Source: Halomarina litorea (lineage in GTDB: Archaea; Halobacteriota; Halobacteria; Halobacteriales; Haloarculaceae). Taken from it: a stretch of 64,000 nucleotides of DNA. The DNA is taken from positions 1,695,655-1,759,654 of the forward strand of contig NZ_CP100448.1 in the NCBI RefSeq assembly GCF_024227715.1, given 5' to 3'. The notes under the pieces were generated by a model. It was not told the origin of the DNA and did not search any database. It worked only from the letters and a program-made list of their open reading frames with translations. Position 1 is the first letter of the stretch. Every line of letters begins with the position of its first letter. Below, one piece after another: positions 50,745-58,534 of the stretch. A program made the position numbers and the translations under genes.

Positions 50745-51611
50745 GTGACTCGCATCGGACGGGCGAGCGCGCCCGCGGCGGGCACCGTCCTCAACGCCCT
50801 CGCGACGGGCGTGGGGTCGGCGTTCGCCATCGACATGGAGACCACGGCGACCGTCGACCTCGATTCGGGGACGGACGGCGTCACCGGCGAGATAGCGGGC
50901 GCACCGGACGCCGACACCCGCCTCGTCGAACGATGCGTCGAGTCCGTCGTCGACCGGTTCGGGGACGGCGAGGACTGGGGCGGTCGGGTCCGCACCGAGA
51001 GCGAGGTGCCGATGGCCGCCGGCCTGAAGAGTTCGAGCGCCGCCGCCAACGCGACGGTGCTGGCGACGCTCGACGCACTCGACGCCTCGGACGACATCGA
51101 GCGAATCGACGCCTGCCGCCTCGGCGTCGACGCCGCCCGCGACGTGGGCGTCACCGTCACCGGGGCGTTCGACGACGCCAGCGCCTCGATGCTCGGCGGC
51201 CTCACCGTCACGGACAACTCGTCGGACGGACTGCTCCACCGCGACGACCCCGACTGGGACGTGCTGGTGTGGGCACCGCCGGAGCAGGCGTTCAGCGCGG
51301 ACGCGGACGTCGCCCGGTGCGAGCAGGTCGCGCCGATGGCCGACCTCGCCGCCGACCTCGCCCTCGACGGCGAGTACGGTCGGGCAATGACCGTCAACGG
51401 ACTGGCGTTCTGTGCGGCACTCGACTACCCGACGGCCCCCGTCGTCGCCGCGATGACGCGAAGCGAGGGCGTGTCGCTGTCGGGGACCGGCCCGAGTTTC
51501 GTGGCGGTCGGCGAGCGGGCGGCACTGGAATCGGTGCGAGACGACTGGAACACCTACGAGGGAGACACATGGCTGACGACGACACAGACAGCGGGCGCAC
51601 GGACGAGATGA
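50745..51611 (+). CDS. aroK: Shikimate kinase (archaeal GHMP type)
   Basis: Phosphorylates shikimate at the 3-hydroxyl in aromatic amino acid synthesis. The 288-residue protein is of the GHMP-kinase fold, unrelated to bacterial AroK: ASAPAAGTVLNALATGVGSAFAID at the N terminus, and the ATP loop ESEVPMAAGLKSSSAAANATVLA. The last motif is SLSGTGPSFVAVG. Translation is taken from GTG 50745. The 3' end overlaps the chorismate mutase gene by 43 nt, so the two form an operon for the shikimate/chorismate pathway. Confidence 0.95.
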   Translation: MTRIGRASAPAAGTVLNALATGVGSAFAIDMETTATVDLDSGTDGVTGEIAGAPDADTRLVERCVESVVDRFGDGEDWGGRVRTESEVPMAAGLKSSSAAANATVLATLDALDASDDIERIDACRLGVDAARDVGVTVTGAFDDASASMLGGLTVTDNSSDGLLHRDDPDWDVLVWAPPEQAFSADADVARCEQVAPMADLAADLALDGEYGRAMTVNGLAFCAALDYPTAPVVAAMTRSEGVSLSGTGPSFVAVGERAALESVRDDWNTYEGDTWLTTTQTAGARTR

Positions 51612-51913
51612 GCCTCGACGAACTGCGCGACGAGATTCGAAACATCGACCGGGAGATCGTCGAACTCATCGCCCAGCGAACCTACGTCGCCGATACCATC
51701 GCAGGGGTCAAACGCGACCAGGGACTGTCGACGACCGACGAGGGACAAGAGGCGGCGGTGATGGACCGCGCCGGCGAGAACGCCGAACGCTTCGAGGTGG
51801 ACGCCAACATGGTGAAGGCCATCTTCCGGTTGCTCATCGAACTGAACAAGATCGAGCAACGACACACTACGGAAATCGACGGACTGCGCGGTGATGGGGA
51901 GTCTGACGAATAG
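51569..51913 (+). CDS. aroQ: Chorismate mutase (AroQ type)
   Basis: Converts chorismate to prephenate on the way to Phe and Tyr. The 114-residue helical protein has the AroQ pattern: LDELRDEIRNIDREIVELIAQRTYVADTIAGVKRDQGL, with the active-site arginine and lysine, then FEVDANMVKAIFRLLIELNKIEQR. It starts 43 nt inside the shikimate kinase gene in another frame, an unusually long overlap that implies coupled translation. ATG 51569 is followed by an acidic leader; an ATG 13 codons later (MSLDELRDE) is the alternative and would shorten the overlap to almost nothing. Confidence 0.9.
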   Translation: MADDDTDSGRTDEMSLDELRDEIRNIDREIVELIAQRTYVADTIAGVKRDQGLSTTDEGQEAAVMDRAGENAERFEVDANMVKAIFRLLIELNKIEQRHTTEIDGLRGDGESDE

Positions 51914-52097
51914 CGGCTTAAATAGAGCTTATACGCAATCGACGGAGAATCGTGAGACGGGGCGACAGTCGGAAACCGCGACTGGGGTGTCGGTACAAGA
52001 CGGTGCTTCTCCGTCTTCGTCGACCGTGTGTACGTATCGGCGGAACGCAGACCGCGAGCGGGATCTCGTTTGTGACAATTGTTACTTATCTGAATAA
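51891..52097 (+). CDS. Possible small zinc-knuckle protein or remnant
   Basis: A 68-codon frame starting inside the 3' end of aroQ. Its end reads TVCTYRRNADRERDLVCDNC YLSE, which resembles haloarchaeal zinc-knuckle miniproteins, but the first knuckle has Arg where a second cysteine is expected (CTYR). A TATA-like TTAAATAG lies at about 51916-51923. It is more likely a degenerate fragment than a working gene. Confidence 0.25.
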   Translation: MMGSLTNSGLNRAYTQSTENRETGRQSETATGVSVQDGASPSSSTVCTYRRNADRERDLVCDNCYLSE

Positions 52098-52418
52098 TAT
52101 CTGGACTGAAAGAGTGCAATCCCTGTGATGTGACCCAACCCACGAGTTTTGTCCGACCAACTGGACGAGACCCGACTGAAACGCCCACCGGTCGTCCGGC
52201 GTGGGTGGGTTCTGTTCACACTGCCAACAGCTCTCAGGCGCGTACCGTGATCGTGTCGAAGTTCCGAAGACCGATCGAATAGTGCGCTCCCATCTCCAGG
52301 AGATGGAACACTACACCCGCATCGCCATCAACGGTCAGGACCACGGACGGGCCTATCGCGCGACTGAGTAGGCGGTACACCGTGTCGAGAGTGTATCTCT
52401 GCTACTTGTGCCGGTTCA
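51914..52418. other. AT-richer gap without a firm gene
   Basis: About 500 nt between aroQ and the cupin gene. Composition drops from about 70% to near 55% G+C at 51914-52110, with AT-rich blocks such as ATAATAT near 52094. It holds only two weak small frames (listed separately). No RNA gene or repeat was recognised. It marks the left edge of the lower-G+C accessory region. Confidence 0.5.
52201..52371 (+). CDS. Possible 56-residue ORF with a CxxC knuckle
   Basis: From GTG 52201 the frame reads VGGFCSHCQQLSGAYRD and continues to HLQEMEHYTRIAINGQDHGRAYRATE, stopping at 52371. There is a single CSHC knuckle and a histidine-rich helix, but no family match, no clear promoter and no upstream ribosome-binding site. 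It could be a remnant of a zinc-binding protein. Low confidence. Confidence 0.2.
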   Translation: MGGFCSHCQQLSGAYRDRVEVPKTDRIVRSHLQEMEHYTRIAINGQDHGRAYRATE

Positions 52419-52976
52419 TCAGCACTCGACCGATGTGACCCATATCGTCGCCGGTTTGCCATCAGGTACGCCGAGGAACGTTCCGTACGCGACCGCCTGT
52501 TCGGTGGTACTCGGATTCCTCGCGACGTGGACGTTCCCCTATCCGGGGTCGATGAGCGCCTCGCCTGCCGTGTAGGTTCGAGCGACGCAGTCACGCTCGT
52601 TGGTGAGTTCGAGTTCCCTCTCGGTGATGGTCACGAGAATCGGCCCCGGGTGGGTGTGCCACCCGGAGGGAACCTCCGGGTGCCACGTCACCTTCGCGAG
52701 GACGACACTGGACGCATCGAACGGGAGCAGCGACGTGATTGGCCCCCGGTCGCTCCCGTCGTAGTCGACCACGAACCCCGCAGCGACGCTGTCCGGGGAG
52801 GTCGCGTGAGGGGCGAGTACTTCGACGCTGAATCCCTCGGGTTCGTCCACCCCACCTGTACTTACTGAGCTGCCGTCGGAGCGGGACTGACCCGCTGCTA
52901 CCGGCGCGTTCAACATGAGCGCGCCGACCACGACAGCGCTGGTGTTCAGTACCGTCCGACGCAACACACTGTCCAT
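52419..52976 (-). pseudogene. Exported cupin-domain protein interrupted by an in-frame TAG
   Basis: From ATG 52976 the product starts with a Sec-type signal (RRTVLNTSAVVVGALMLNAPVAAGQ, cleavage after AAG or APVAA) and continues with a cupin: VTWHPEVPSGWHTHPGPILVTITEREL, with His residues of the metal site, and YTAGEALIDPG. There a TAG stops it (52539-52541). The same frame then continues for 39 codons with GNVHVARNPSTTEQAVAYGT and FLGVPDGKPATIW to a TGA at 52419-52421, which is exactly the missing C-terminal half of the cupin. One nonsense change, perhaps CAG to TAG, explains it. Confidence 0.75.
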
Positions 52977-53047
52977 CGAATCCGTTGCGGTGCTCGTCTG
53001 CAACAGGACGAACGCGACCACCGGAGAGTAACTCAATCGAGACGACG

Positions 53048-53449
53048 CTACAGTGCTTGCTGCATGGGGTGTGTGTCAGCGTACTCGACGAACCGGGTCA
53101 CCCCACCGTTCTCGATGGTCAGGACGTGAGCGAACGCCGCCTCGACAGCGGTACCAGACGCCGCAGCTATCGCGTCGATAATTCCGGTCACCACGACCGT
53201 GTCACCAGCATCGATGAACTGCTTGTTTACGAGCGCGAACTCGCTCCAGTCCTCGGCGAGCGGCTGGAAGACGTGCTCCGCGATGGCCTGTGACCCGGTG
53301 TAGGTCCCGCCGTAGGGTCCCCCTTCGACGGCGACCCACTCGATGTCCTCGGTCCATCCCGCCATCGTCGCCTCCATGTCACCCTCGGCGAACGCGGCGT
53401 ACAGCGACTCGACCAGTTCGACGTTCGATTGTGCGGTAGTGCTTGACAT
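53048..53449 (-). CDS. SnoaL-like/NTF2-fold protein (ketosteroid isomerase-like)
   Basis: A 133-residue single-domain protein with the family pattern: NVELVESLYAAFAEGDMEATMAGWTEDIEWVAVEGGPYGGTYTGSQAIAEHVFQPLAEDW, then a run of strands (FALVNKQFIDAGDTVVVTGI and FAHVLTIENGGVTRFVEYADT). Aspartate and glutamate residues in the cavity are compatible with an isomerase or cyclase, but no substrate can be assigned. The ATG at 53449 begins MSSTTAQSN; one 6 codons upstream is possible. It lies in the lower-G+C region beside the cupin gene, on the same strand. Confidence 0.8.
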   Translation of the reverse strand: MSSTTAQSNVELVESLYAAFAEGDMEATMAGWTEDIEWVAVEGGPYGGTYTGSQAIAEHVFQPLAEDWSEFALVNKQFIDAGDTVVVTGIIDAIAAASGTAVEAAFAHVLTIENGGVTRFVEYADTHPMQQAL

Positions 53450-53579
53450 GACGATTCGATGTCCCATGGCGATGTGACGAGAAAACGGTTTGTGCTGACG
53501 TTTCAGAGCTTCTCGACGGATATTTAGTCCGACTATCGGTCAGACTAGTTCGGGGGGAATGCGCTGTCGACGGGTTGTG

Positions 53580-53939
53580 TCAGGCGGAGGAGGCTACTCC
53601 CACACGGGAACGTACGCACACCCGTCCATGAACAGCGCGGGCGGTGTCGGGAGTCGGCTGTTCGACACGAATATCGCCGAGGAGTGTCCGGTCGAACGGA
53701 TGGTTGCGTGCTATCGTCCGTTCGGCCTGTTCGGACGTGATGATGAGCGTGCGTTCGCCGTCCGGAGCGACGACCCACACGTCATGGAAGGGGTCGAGGC
53801 CGTCTGGCGTCGTGTGAAAATCGTACGCCCACACGCAGTAGCCACTCGTGAAGCACGTGCCCGGGAGCAGCGTTCCTCCGAATGCCTGTAGCTGGGAGGT
53901 GGGTTCGAGTGTTCGTTTGGGAGTTGACTGCGTTGCCAT
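53580..53939 (-). CDS. Hypothetical protein
   Basis: A 119-residue frame beginning MATQSTPKRTLEPTSQLQAFGGTLLPGTC. The central part, SGYCVWAYDFHTTPDGLDPFHDVWVVAPDGERTLIITSEQAERTI, looks like a folded alpha/beta domain, and LLGDIRVEQPTPD follows. No family is recognised. Composition is lower in G+C than the window average, as for its neighbours. The gene is probably real given its length and sense, but function and history are unknown. Confidence 0.5.
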   Translation of the reverse strand: MATQSTPKRTLEPTSQLQAFGGTLLPGTCFTSGYCVWAYDFHTTPDGLDPFHDVWVVAPDGERTLIITSEQAERTIARNHPFDRTLLGDIRVEQPTPDTARAVHGRVCVRSRVGVASSA

Positions 53940-54231
53940 GCCCCCATCATACGAACCCCGTCAGGGTATGGATTTGTTACCGATTGGTAGATTCTCTGGT
54001 TATCTGTATATGAGGGTGATGACGGTGATATACCCACACACGCTCTTTCTACCAGTAGGTGCCCGACGCGACAGACACGTACCGCGTACGTAACAGACGA
54101 CTCCGACCGGATAGACCACGTACTTTCAGTTCCAATCTGTTTGCAGAGGAGGAATTCGGCGACGCGAGCTCGACGGTATCGACGGGTGTCGGTCGAAATC
54201 TGTGGCTACGTCCCAGTAGTTGTTCGTGGTG
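53940..54231. other. AT-rich gap
   Basis: About 290 nt at near 50% G+C, with many AT-rich pieces such as GGTTATCTGTATATGAGG near 53998-54015 on both strands. No gene, tRNA or inverted repeat is convincing. It probably holds the promoter for the hypothetical gene at 53939 and a 3' region for the serine hydrolase operon. Confidence 0.45.
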
Positions 54232-55476
54232 TCAGCCTCGAGTACGAGCCGAGGTCGTCTTCGGACCCCGGCGTTCGATGCACTCGTAGACGGCGTTCCT
54301 GAGTTCCACTTCTCGGGGGTCGTCCTTCAGGTGGAGGCCCATCCGGTTCGGGGTGTAGGCGAAACCCAGCCCCACATCGGGGTCCGCGAACCCGAACGAC
54401 CCGCCAGCACCGGGCGTGCCGAACGCGGAGTCGGATGTCCCGAACCGGAAGTCGGGTGACGGTTTCGAGTACCCCATCGCGTACGCCGTCTCGATGCCGA
54501 TGACGACGTCACTCGTCTCACCGGACGGTGGTACCGGGGGTGCAGTCAGTTCGGCGAACACTGACCCGCCGAGTCCCAATGCTCTTCCGCCTGTCGCCAG
54601 GTCGCCGTACAGTTGTGCCATCGAGCGAGCGGTCCCGATACCGTTGGCCGAGGGAATCTCGACGGCGCGGAACGCACGACTGTTCAGGTCTGCCGGGCGT
54701 CGCGTGCCGAGGACGTTCAATGCCCGGCTCGTCACCGACCAGGGGTTGAAGAACGACAGGACGAACCGGGGTGACATCGTGCGGAGGTTCCGGAACATGT
54801 CCAGCGGTCCGAACGCATCGAGGGCGGCTACGCGCTCGTCTGGTACGTGTTCGGGCAGCCCGATGTAGAACGTGAGGTCGAGCGGTTCCGCCACCTCCTC
54901 GGCGAAGAACCGGCCCAACGTCCGCCCGTCGGTGTGTCGGAGCAGTTCGCTTGCGTACCAGCCCAGCGTGAACGCGTGATACCCTTGGCGCGTCCCGGGC
55001 TCCCAGTCGAGGTCCTCCCTCGCGAGTAGCTCCGAGAGGAACTCCACGTCGGCGATTTGTTCGGGTGACAGCCGCCCATCGAGCGTCGCGAGCCCCGCCT
55101 GGTGGCTCAACAACTGCCGGACCGTCACGTCACCCTTCCCGCCCTGCGCGAACGCCGGCCAGTGGTCGGCGATACGGTCGTCGAGCGCGAACAGTCCACG
55201 GGAGAGGGCGACGGCAATGGCCGCAGCCGCCATCCCTTTCGTCCCCGAGGCCACGAGGACCATTGTCTCGGCCTCCCATGGGTGTTCACGGGCGGTGTCC
55301 CGGTGGCCACCCCAGAGGTCCACGACGGGGTCGCCGTAGTGGTAGACGGCGAGGGCCGCGCCGAGTTCGTCTCGCTCGGCGAAGTTCCCCGCGAACACCT
55401 CGCGGACCGGTTCGAAGCCGGGCGCAACGGTGCCGTGAACCGCCACGGCATCGGCAGCCGAAGATGCAGTCGTCAT
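54232..55476 (-). CDS. Serine hydrolase (beta-lactamase/EstB family)
   Basis: A 414-residue protein of the class C beta-lactamase-like esterase group. The nucleophile motif SxxK is SGTK in MVLVASGTKGMAAA, the second motif is YHA in RQGYHAFTLGWY (YxN position), and GAGGSFGFADP near 370 corresponds to the third (KTG-like) motif. No signal peptide is visible, which suggests a cytoplasmic esterase rather than an antibiotic resistance enzyme. It overlaps the DUF4188 gene upstream by 4 nt (ATGA), forming an operon. Substrate unknown. Confidence 0.85.
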   Translation of the reverse strand: MTTASSAADAVAVHGTVAPGFEPVREVFAGNFAERDELGAALAVYHYGDPVVDLWGGHRDTAREHPWEAETMVLVASGTKGMAAAAIAVALSRGLFALDDRIADHWPAFAQGGKGDVTVRQLLSHQAGLATLDGRLSPEQIADVEFLSELLAREDLDWEPGTRQGYHAFTLGWYASELLRHTDGRTLGRFFAEEVAEPLDLTFYIGLPEHVPDERVAALDAFGPLDMFRNLRTMSPRFVLSFFNPWSVTSRALNVLGTRRPADLNSRAFRAVEIPSANGIGTARSMAQLYGDLATGGRALGLGGSVFAELTAPPVPPSGETSDVVIGIETAYAMGYSKPSPDFRFGTSDSAFGTPGAGGSFGFADPDVGLGFAYTPNRMGLHLKDDPREVELRNAVYECIERRGPKTTSARTRG

Positions 55477-55982
55477 TTCGCTGCTCCCGACTGGCGTTCG
55501 TCCGGTCCCGAGCGGTTCGTCGTCATGCCGAGGCGGCGCGTGTGGGCAGCCATCGGGACGAGGGTCGTCAGACCGCCCAACCCTTTCGGGGGCATGTCTC
55601 GGTAGAAGGTCTCGTAGTTGCCGTCCTCGATGAGGTAGATTTCAGCCCAGAAGCCGACTTCACCGTTTCGCAGGTTCTCGTTGACCCACCTCCAGGCGGG
55701 AACGTGCATGTCGTTCGGGTTCTGTGCGAACCGCTGGAGGTCTTCGAGTGACCGCCAGTACTGAATCGAGCCGCCACCGCGGAGTCCCTGCAACGCTGGC
55801 TGGTAGCCGAGGAACCCGCTGTCCGGGTCGGTCGCCAGTTCCTCGAACATCGCACCGATCTTTCGCCCTGCGAGGAACCACTTGTGGATGGCACGGAGCC
55901 TGTTGAGCCGAAATCCGTTGATGTACAGTACGAAGTCGCCATCGATCTCCGCAGCCATTCGGCCACTGATTACGTGTCCCAT
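55473..55982 (-). CDS. DUF4188 family protein (monooxygenase-like)
   Basis: A 169-residue protein: VISGRMAAEIDGDFVLYINGFRLNRLRAIHKWFLAGRKIGAMFEEL, then GFLGYQPALQGLRGGGSIQYWRSLEDLQRFAQNPNDMHVPAWRWVNE and VGFWAEIYLIEDGNYETFYRDMPPKGLG. These are the conserved blocks of DUF4188, a dimeric alpha-beta barrel related to heme-containing aldoxime dehydratases and antibiotic monooxygenases. The histidine in DMHVP might bind heme if present; unproven. First gene of an operon with the serine hydrolase; a detoxification role would suit the pair. Confidence 0.85.
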   Translation of the reverse strand: MGHVISGRMAAEIDGDFVLYINGFRLNRLRAIHKWFLAGRKIGAMFEELATDPDSGFLGYQPALQGLRGGGSIQYWRSLEDLQRFAQNPNDMHVPAWRWVNENLRNGEVGFWAEIYLIEDGNYETFYRDMPPKGLGGLTTLVPMAAHTRRLGMTTNRSGPDERQSGAAK

Positions 55983-56529
55983 CTTCTCATGTAGACCCTT
56001 TGAAGGGATAATCGTGACTGTCGATGTCTACAGTTGTTGTCGCTCGAGCGAATCTCCGATCTCCCCCCCGTTCGAGAGTGGAACCTACGATTCTCCGTTG
56101 ACAGACAGCCGCTCTCCGTCTATCGTTCGGCGCGTGCCGCCTCTGCTCCGAGGTTCCCTGTCGCGACCCCGGGGGGTTGATGCAGACATCGAATCCGACA
56201 GATATCGAACGGCTGGTAGCAACACAGTTCGCGCTATCCACTCCTCCACGAGCGTTTCAACGTTCTCGGACGTCTCGCGGTACGCGGCAGCTAGTTCGTC
56301 CTCGTCGGGCCGGTCGGACTCGACTGACGTTGCTACTGAACCTCGCTGAACCGTTCGCCGTCGCGTGAGCCGTTCCGTGCCATCGGTATCAGGTACCGTG
56401 GCCGAGGAGTCACACAGTGACTGCCGGTGAGTGCTGAGGTTGGAAACGAAGCCGTGAGTAACCACCCAGCGACGCGGGAACCGACGGACGAGATTCGCGT
56501 CTACCGGTCCTGAGTCCCCTCCGGTCGGG
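55983..56529. other. Gap with gene debris
   Basis: About 550 nt with no firm gene. On the minus strand, 56235-56340 encodes DRPDEDELAAAYRETSENVETLVEEW, which resembles the antitoxin-like small proteins of haloarchaeal toxin-antitoxin loci, but no start, no toxin and no full-length frame are found. The rest is without recognisable signal. This is the right edge of the lower-G+C region. Confidence 0.4.
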
Positions 56530-56874
56530 CTACTGCCCGGTCGCGTCGCCGATCTTCCCGACGACGCTCGTGAACGCACCGCTGAAGAACTCGACCATCG
56601 CCTCGCCGGCGGCCTCGTCGTCCTCGTCGACGGCCCCCTCGAGCGCCTGCGCGTACGCGCGGAACACCTCGCGGTAGGTGTCGGCCATCCCCGCGCCGAC
56701 CGCGATGATCCCTCGCTCGCGGGCGCTGTCGAGGTTCGACTGCAACGCGTCGTGGGCCGCGTCGTCCTCGCTCTGCTCGTCCAGGTAGTGGGCCAGCGCG
56801 TTGCGGACCACCGCCCGTTCTCGCTCCGACAGGTGTACCGTCACCCGCTGGTGGGACTGGTCCGGTTCGGTCAT
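56530..56874 (-). CDS. Hypothetical acidic helical protein
   Basis: A 114-residue protein starting MTEPDQSHQRVTVHLSERERAVVRNALAHYLDEQS. It seems all-helical: DDAAHDALQSNLDSARERGIIAVGAGMADTYREVFRAYAQALEG, and EAMVEFFSGAFTSVVGKIGDATGQ. The opening resembles a DNA-binding or coiled-coil module (VTVHLSERERAVVRNAL), but no family is recognised. It belongs to the high-G+C core by composition and begins the normal region right of the accessory island. Confidence 0.55.
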   Translation of the reverse strand: MTEPDQSHQRVTVHLSERERAVVRNALAHYLDEQSEDDAAHDALQSNLDSARERGIIAVGAGMADTYREVFRAYAQALEGAVDEDDEAAGEAMVEFFSGAFTSVVGKIGDATGQ

Positions 56875-56966
56875 ACCCGTGGGTCCGGGCGGGCGGGTAA
56901 AGTCTCCCTCGTCCCACCCCTGCCGTTCACCCAACACCTAACTGACCTGTCCCGGAAGTGTCCGGT

Positions 56967-57392
56967 ATGGCCCCCCCACCGACCGCCCCCCTCCGGAATC
57001 CGCACTCCAACGAGCAGATGCGCGAACCGCGTCGTCCCGACCCGACGCCCGACACCACCCCGCCGGGCATCACGCTCGCCTGCCTGGTTCGGCTGGCGGT
57101 GGTCGCACTCGGCGTCTCGGCCGGATTCGACCTGCTCGCCGGGTCGACGTCACTGCTCGGCGGCGCGTTGCTCGTCGTCTCGGCGGTCGAACTCCCCGTC
57201 GTCTGGGGGCTCTGGCGACTCCGCGCGTGGGCGTGGCGCACCGCCCTCGCCCTCTACGCCGTCGCCCTCGTCGTGACCGTCGCGGCGGGGTTGCTGGTCG
57301 TCCCCGCCCTGACGGCACTCGTGGCCGGGTACGTCTATTCGAAACGCGGGGCGTACCGCCGAGAGCGACCCGCGGCCGAGTCGCGTCGCTGA
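56967..57392 (+). CDS. Small multi-span membrane protein
   Basis: A 141-residue protein with a Pro-rich N-terminal tail (APPPTAPLRNPHSNEQMREP) and four hydrophobic segments at about 33-52, 55-72, 78-95 and 97-120. The C terminus is basic (YVYSKRGAYRRERPAAESRR), so it is probably cytoplasmic. It has the appearance of a DoxX-like or hypothetical four-helix protein, but no motif confirms this. Confidence 0.55.
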   Translation: MAPPPTAPLRNPHSNEQMREPRRPDPTPDTTPPGITLACLVRLAVVALGVSAGFDLLAGSTSLLGGALLVVSAVELPVVWGLWRLRAWAWRTALALYAVALVVTVAAGLLVVPALTALVAGYVYSKRGAYRRERPAAESRR

Positions 57393-57399
57393 CCTCGGC

Positions 57400-57762
57400 T
57401 CACGCCTCCTCGACGTCTACGACCTCGGCGTCGAAGTCGTGCCACGGGTTCCCGTCGGGGTTCAGCGCCGCCTCCAGGAGCCGTGTCGCCTCCCCTCCAG
57501 CCCCCTCTGCGTCGTCCGACTCGACGGTCGCGCGCCAGGTCCCCTCGGCGTCGAACTCGACCGTCGTCTCGTCGTCCTCCGGGTCGCCACCGTCGACGGT
57601 CTCCACGGAGTAGTCCTCCCAGGTCCCCTCCACGTCCCCCTCGTCGAGGGCCACCTGCAGGTGGTCGAGTGCGATGTCGGCCGGGGACCGGTCGCCGATG
57701 TTCGCCGGGGAGACCTGTTCGTGCCACGTTCCCTCGAACTCGAGTGTCACGTCGTACTCCAT
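57400..57762 (-). CDS. Hypothetical acidic protein with an internal duplication
   Basis: A 120-residue soluble protein made of two similar halves. The first half has VTLEFEGTWHEQVSPANIG and ADIALDHLQVALDEGD; the second has TVEFDAEGTWRATVESDDA and GEATRLLEAALNPDGN. Both therefore contain an EF/EFD-x-GTW strand followed by a helix, about 55 residues apart. No family is known to me. The start is the ATG at 57762. It is convergent with the preceding membrane protein gene (7 nt apart). Confidence 0.55.
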   Translation of the reverse strand: MEYDVTLEFEGTWHEQVSPANIGDRSPADIALDHLQVALDEGDVEGTWEDYSVETVDGGDPEDDETTVEFDAEGTWRATVESDDAEGAGGEATRLLEAALNPDGNPWHDFDAEVVDVEEA

Positions 57763-57853
57763 CGTGCCCACCGAGAGCCACGCAGAGGGGATAACGCTGT
57801 GGCCGGACTGGGACAAGGGCCGACGGGGAACGGCCCTCGCCAGCGCGTTCGTC

Positions 57854-58534
57854 TCAGTACTCCCAGCGGCGCGTCACCCGCGCTGCGACCTCCGGGTGGG
57901 CCTCCCGCAGGGCGTCGGCGTCCCGTTCGCCGTCGACGTTGACCACGTGGACCTCCCCGCGCCGGTCGGAGTAGACGTCCTGGAAGTCGTAGACGACGCC
58001 GACGACGGTGACGCCCTCGGGGACGTCGTCGCTCTCGACGAGCGAATCGACCTGCCGGTCGACGTTGTACTCCACGAGGTGGTTCACCGCGTCCTCGCGG
58101 TCGAGGTCGTCGGGGAGGGCGTCGATCCCCGACTGGAGGTGGGGTTCGAGCAGTGCGAGGCAGTGTTCGATGCCGGGCGGTTCCTCGATGCCGCCGGTCA
58201 GGTCGTCGTAGGCCGCCGTGACCGCCCCGCACCCGGTGTGGCCGACGACGACGGCGAGGTCGGTCCCGGTGTGCGCGAGAGGGTAGAGGACGTCGCCCGA
58301 GACGACGGTCCCGGCGTCCGTTCGCTGGACGACGCGGTTCCCGATGTTGCTACACGTGAAGATTCCGCCCGGTTCGTCGTTGCCCCACATGTGGTCCTGC
58401 AGGACTCGCGAGTCCGAACAGCAGACCGTGACCGCGTTCGGGTGCTGTGCGTCCTGGACGTCGCCGAAGCGCGACTGGAACTCGCTGGCGTGGTCGGCGT
58501 TCCGTTCGAGCAGTTCGACGAATCGCTCGTGCAT
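57854..58534 (-). CDS. Beta-class carbonic anhydrase
   Basis: Catalyses CO2 hydration at a zinc site. The 226-residue enzyme has C39 and the D41/R43 dyad in VCCSDSRV, and H99/C102 in VGHTGCGAV, which give the Cys2-His ligand set. TCSNIGNRV (60-68) is also conserved. A start four codons upstream (MHPR) is possible. It is divergent from the phosphatase gene on the right, separated by about 140 nt. It probably supplies bicarbonate for carboxylation or helps pH control. Confidence 0.95.
   Translation of the reverse strand: MHERFVELLERNADHASEFQSRFGDVQDAQHPNAVTVCCSDSRVLQDHMWGNDEPGGIFTCSNIGNRVVQRTDAGTVVSGDVLYPLAHTGTDLAVVVGHTGCGAVTAAYDDLTGGIEEPPGIEHCLALLEPHLQSGIDALPDDLDREDAVNHLVEYNVDRQVDSLVESDDVPEGVTVVGVVYDFQDVYSDRRGEVHVVNVDGERDADALREAHPEVAARVTRRWEY

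Follow-up and report, generated by a model that had tools for sequence, protein, structure and literature searches.

The interrupted cupin gene in the window (the whole stretch of 64,000 nucleotides from Halomarina litorea that was analysed) is very probably an ordinary pseudogene, namely a 5′-truncated duplicate that has been left to decay. It has an uninterrupted relative, it carries lesions in the form of an in-frame TAG and a lost 5′ end, and its evolution is close to neutral, with an omega point estimate of 0.54. The reading frame lies on the minus strand, from 52976 to 52419, and translates as MDSVLRRTVLN...GEALIDPG, followed by a single in-frame TAG (minus strand, 52541–52539), then by GNVHVARNPSTTEQAVAYGTFLGVPDGKPATIWVTSVEC and a natural TGA. 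A sequence-only reading had described one cupin frame split by this TAG, and its coordinates and peptides are confirmed by translation and by in-register alignment, to which we add the minus strand. The openness of the frame is no proof by itself, since a stretch of 39 open codons past the TAG has a chance probability of about 0.28; both sides of the stop are, in addition, in register with a paralogue in the same genome (89.3% over 590 bases, with zero gaps), and the same 183 codons align to the homologue of Halomarina oriensis. The frame may start at the ATG at 52976, ahead of a twin-arginine motif, which would give 145 residues up to the TAG, or alternatively at the TTG at 53036, which would give 165.

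The paralogue, at C1:1068270-1068818, 680 kb away, is free of internal stops, shares 86% protein identity with the window copy, and is the only other match in the host genome (3.88 Mb, 6 contigs, 98.4% complete). In blastn, the window copy and the paralogue locus have 590 bases in common, running from 52999 to 52410 of the window with 63 mismatches and no gap, and we take this minus-strand segment (52410–52999) to be the whole extent of the decayed duplicate. Its homology sets in 43 bases past the likely ATG of the paralogue, and the window copy thus lacks the paralogue's upstream region and its first 14 codons, the ATG among them; the place where these belong (53000–53047, minus strand) has no blastn similarity to it. 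The paralogue and the H. oriensis homologue (NZ_WSZK01000015.1) belong to the same gene family as the window copy and keep the same register over 183 codons, but differ from it in having a common upstream region, an ATG, no internal stop, and constraint on their sequence. The intact genes of the two species have 743 bases in common at 83%, the sequence before the ATG included, and both carry TGACTAGTTTAT upstream of the ATG, a motif that is missing from the 120 bases inspected at the window copy. The sequence-only reading, in which a single codon stands between the frame and a full protein, is thus incomplete: the upstream region and 14 codons are missing as well, and the window branch carries 23 other nonsynonymous changes, some of them at conserved sites. 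Counting against decay, the frame itself is cleaner than would be expected of an old pseudogene: all 183 codons are in frame, with no frameshift, and there is no indel over the 590 bases. Duplication of a larger segment together with neighbouring genes was considered and not seen, as around the gene only the 590 bases are common with the 16 kb about the paralogue; six more blastn matches to these 16 kb are short and lie 9 to 43 kb off within the window. For the 507 bases flanking the copy, no further location in the genome was found at E 0.01, and a search of plasmid records, which may not include those of the host or of very close genomes, gave no relative.

The homologues bear directly on the origin of the TAG. 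A family-wide search gave a match in 11 of 146 genomes, the host included, and the 12 further matches that it listed are all free of internal stops; within the genus, a match was obtained in one of the seven remaining genomes, that taken to be H. oriensis, at about 79–80% amino acid identity. Across 18 aligned homologues (L010 was omitted, being judged the same gene as L003 by an equal blast match), the column of the TAG holds eight CAG codons, two GTG codons and eight gaps, and TAG in none. Six of the eight homologues with CAG (L004–L009) were partly selected for glutamine, because the locus search used the peptide DPGQGNVH, in which the stop was read as Q. The paralogue and H. oriensis, which were also found by the family-wide search and are free of this bias, both have CAG, and the other ten aligned homologues, from the family-wide search, have a gap (eight) or valine (two). 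Of the three options that had been put forward for the TAG, namely a nonsense mutation, an error and programmed read-through, a nonsense mutation from CAG to TAG in a dispensable duplicate fits best, given that both the paralogue and H. oriensis have CAG here. A natural gene end at this point is ruled out, as all 18 aligned homologues continue past it; homologues ending here had been named as a finding that would speak against an interrupted frame. As a side observation, one genome of the family search (G130, 75% complete) holds two cupin copies, L011 and L020, both without internal stops, so that more than one duplication of the cupin gene may have occurred within the family.

Selection on the window copy is relaxed both before and after the stop, whereas the paralogue and the H. 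oriensis gene evolve under constraint. Within the limits set by the use of a single outgroup, a length of 182 codons and the presence of doublet changes inside codons, parsimony polarisation with H. oriensis as outgroup assigns 24 nonsynonymous and 9 synonymous changes to the window branch (10, 12 and 11 at the three codon positions) and 3 nonsynonymous and 8 synonymous changes to that of the paralogue, with 7 changes unpolarised (4 synonymous, 3 nonsynonymous). The two branches differ (Fisher p=0.012; p=0.035 or 0.009 when the seven unpolarised changes are assigned to one or the other branch), and the window branch is no different from the neutral site ratio (p=0.84), whereas the paralogue branch departs from it (p=0.0015). 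The ratio of nonsynonymous to synonymous changes on the window branch is 16:6 before the stop and 7:3 after it, which compare with the paralogue's 3:8 at p=0.024 and p=0.086, respectively. Pairwise dN/dS is 0.45 between window copy and paralogue and 0.12 between paralogue and H. oriensis. A three-taxon codon model, which shares the limits given above, places omega at 0.54 on the window branch and at 0.096 on the other branches (2dlnL 13.47, p=0.00024), and omega=1 on the window branch is not rejected (p=0.20). Before the stop, omega is 0.505 against 0.131 on the others (p=0.011; omega=1, p=0.20), and after it the estimate, from 39 codons, is unstable, at 4.3 against 0.01 (p=0.0004), with omega=1 again not rejected (p=0.73). 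Among 33 random changes, 0.87 stops would be expected, and one is observed. The point estimate of 0.54 nevertheless leaves room for weak constraint, or for a functional period before decay, and the p=0.011 of the codon model before the stop and the p=0.086 of the simple counts after it likewise stand on the side against decay.

The same pattern bears on the idea that programmed or tolerated read-through of the TAG, by pyrrolysine, a suppressor tRNA or near-cognate decoding, gives a full cupin, a reading that we regard as extremely improbable. In its favour, the frame stays open and keeps its register before as well as after the stop, and the literature lends it some general plausibility: the accessible part of one study argues that read-through of in-frame stops is widespread in bacteria (PMC7918605), and the accessible part of a review states that the majority of interrupted archaeal genes are functional and gives selenocysteine and pyrrolysine as the demonstrated cases of read-through in Archaea (PMC8211752). 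The likeness to the bacterial candidates consists in a stop inside a recognisable gene; as described in that part of the study, those candidates keep a dN/dS below 1 and have a stop common to species, whereas selection on the window copy is relaxed past the stop, the opposite of that criterion, and no aligned homologue shares the stop (PMC7918605). The decoding machinery for which the sequence-only reading had proposed a search did not emerge either. The best PylS match in the genome reaches 22.6 bits (E 8.8e-5) against a cut-off of 178, and in a control some match was found in 13 of 14 genomes, with the cut-off passed by one. None of the 42 tRNAs found has a CUA anticodon, 39 of them having been read by ARAGORN and three intron-bearing ones by eye (UCU, UUG and CAU), in a census that is incomplete because tRNA-Trp is not among the 42. 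TAG also terminates three of the eight nearby genes looked at. Programmed read-through is thus left unsupported, with selection relaxed before and after the stop, no pyrrolysine system found, and no amber-reading tRNA among the 42.

At the level of the protein, the window copy has likewise lost features that its relatives retain. The paralogue scores 36.7 bits against Cupin_2 (PF07883), whose cut-off is 27.2, and the read-through window frame 17.3; no family match was obtained for the read-through window copy at E 0.001. At 26 columns with agreement in at least 17 of the 18 homologues, the window copy deviates five times, with F changed to S and with changes at both G before SGWHTH, at the G of EGEL and at a P near the end; the two close relatives, L002 and L003, each show 0 of 26 deviations, in columns with agreement in at least 16 of the other 17. 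These losses also weigh on the view that a mistake in sequencing or assembly produced the TAG and that the window holds an intact second cupin, which we consider very improbable. An error would agree with a single base change and a copy free of frameshifts, but one mistake would leave unexplained the 5′ loss, the neutral-like pattern of the 32 other changes on the window branch and the conserved residues that have been lost. The TAG base itself may be a read error, but these remaining signs of decay would all stand, and they rule out an error in sequencing as a complete account.

The predicted model of the paralogue (mean pLDDT 76, pTM 0.65; residues 1–60 below 50, blocks from residue 111 at 90–97) finds its best fold matches among cupins, such as TM1459 and Mn hydroxynitrile lyase, with TM-scores of 0.6–0.7 when normalised to target length and of about 0.4 when normalised to query length. 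By sequence, the paralogue matches 2fqp, 4bif and 8oz8 (the latter two being Mn hydroxynitrile lyase) at E values of 2.8e-6 to 0.0012, and TM1459, first by fold, is weak by sequence (E about 0.3); the NCBIfam mandelonitrile lyase family is far from reached, at 28.3 bits against a cut-off of 140. The place of the stop corresponds to residue 168 of the paralogue, past which lie His172 and the model's strands 172–175 and 183–190. The part of the window frame beyond the TAG (52419–52538, minus strand) accordingly covers the GNVH histidine, which we take to be that of cupin motif 2 and a metal-binding residue of the motif, as well as the counterparts of the last predicted barrel strands. The suggestion that a product truncated in its barrel would be inactive is likely, judging from the two strands lost in the predicted model.

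Whether a shortened product might nevertheless matter has been considered in two forms. In the first, the truncated product would have a new role, for example as a shortened secreted protein, and only the part before the stop would count. The twin-arginine motif is present with an ATG ahead of it, and the sequence suggests that the product of the cupin gene is exported (the paralogue scores 14.8 bits against the Pfam TAT signal, under the cut-off of 22.7). The changes before the stop (16:6) look as neutral as those after it (7:3), however, and the predicted barrel would miss two strands, so we give this form next to no credence. In the second, for which we see a very slight chance, the copy would be expressed via the transcript of the upstream gene, a short exported or an occasional read-through product would have a weak, lineage-specific role, and the TAG would be recent and adaptive. 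It also counts against the decay reading that the twin-arginine motif is kept with an ATG in front, so that the cell could make a short product, with that transcript as one source. The neighbour upstream, on the same strand, is a SnoaL/NTF2-like gene (53048–53467, minus strand; Pfam SnoaL_2, 50.7 bits), whose TAG stop codon lies 48 bases ahead of the cupin segment.

The genomic setting of the copy was compared with six of the seven other genomes of the genus, by tblastn at E 1e-5 in stretches fetched around chorismate mutase. The genes for a GHMP kinase, DUF5796 and chorismate mutase, to the left of the copy, occur together in all six stretches; an AAA ATPase gene occurs in four of them. For seven window proteins, from the cupin copy up to 57.4 kb, none of the six gave a tblastn match, and similarity resumes near 57.75 kb in at least three, which places the copy within a variable segment (about 51914–57750, mostly of lower GC) between the chorismate mutase gene (51566–51913, plus strand), its conserved left edge, and conserved genes on the other side. 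The esterase gene of this segment is not private to the host, as relatives at 83–85% occur elsewhere in four of the seven congeners. A 56% identical relative of this esterase/beta-lactamase-family gene (L088, G055:C12:300974-302179, minus strand) contains one in-frame TGA. The esterase and an af470-like monooxygenase gene overlap by four bases (55473–55476, minus strand), which suggests one transcript. A frame of 119 residues at 53580–53939 (minus strand) resembles the N-terminal part of a protein of 233 residues (G000:C1:499604), with 40–42% identity across some 90 residues. The remainder of that protein has no good match in the window, and the frame is therefore probably a second truncated gene in the segment. 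Direct repeats in 51500–58000 comprise three short families, all at 56.2–57.7 kb, and a 17-base inverted pair with one arm within the cupin copy and the other at 55473–55489 is taken as chance. A promoter and terminator scan for sites of the sigma-70 type gave three promoter-like and two terminator-like sites, which were left unused for this archaeon.

Taken as a decaying duplicate, the copy would have the following history. A 5′-truncated duplicate of a probably exported cupin gene would have inserted into a variable part of the chromosome and decayed since, with the paralogue elsewhere retaining the function. One C-to-T transition would have turned a CAG codon into the TAG, just ahead of the presumed motif 2 histidine, so that any product from the ATG at 52976 would stop after its 145 residues, lacking that histidine and the last barrel strands, and should be unstable or inactive. 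We infer the order of these events and the lack of expression and activity, as well as the origin of the copy, be it within the host genome or from a close relative. Among the matches listed in searches of the literature on haloarchaeal pseudogenes, archaeal recoding and Halomarina genomes, as far as the accessible text of these sources goes, the locus is not named. With one paralogue and one outgroup, it makes a tidy case for separating decay from read-through, because selection can be read separately on each side of the stop. The consequence for annotation is that the window copy should be marked as a pseudogene and not as a recoded gene, and the finding means little beyond that.
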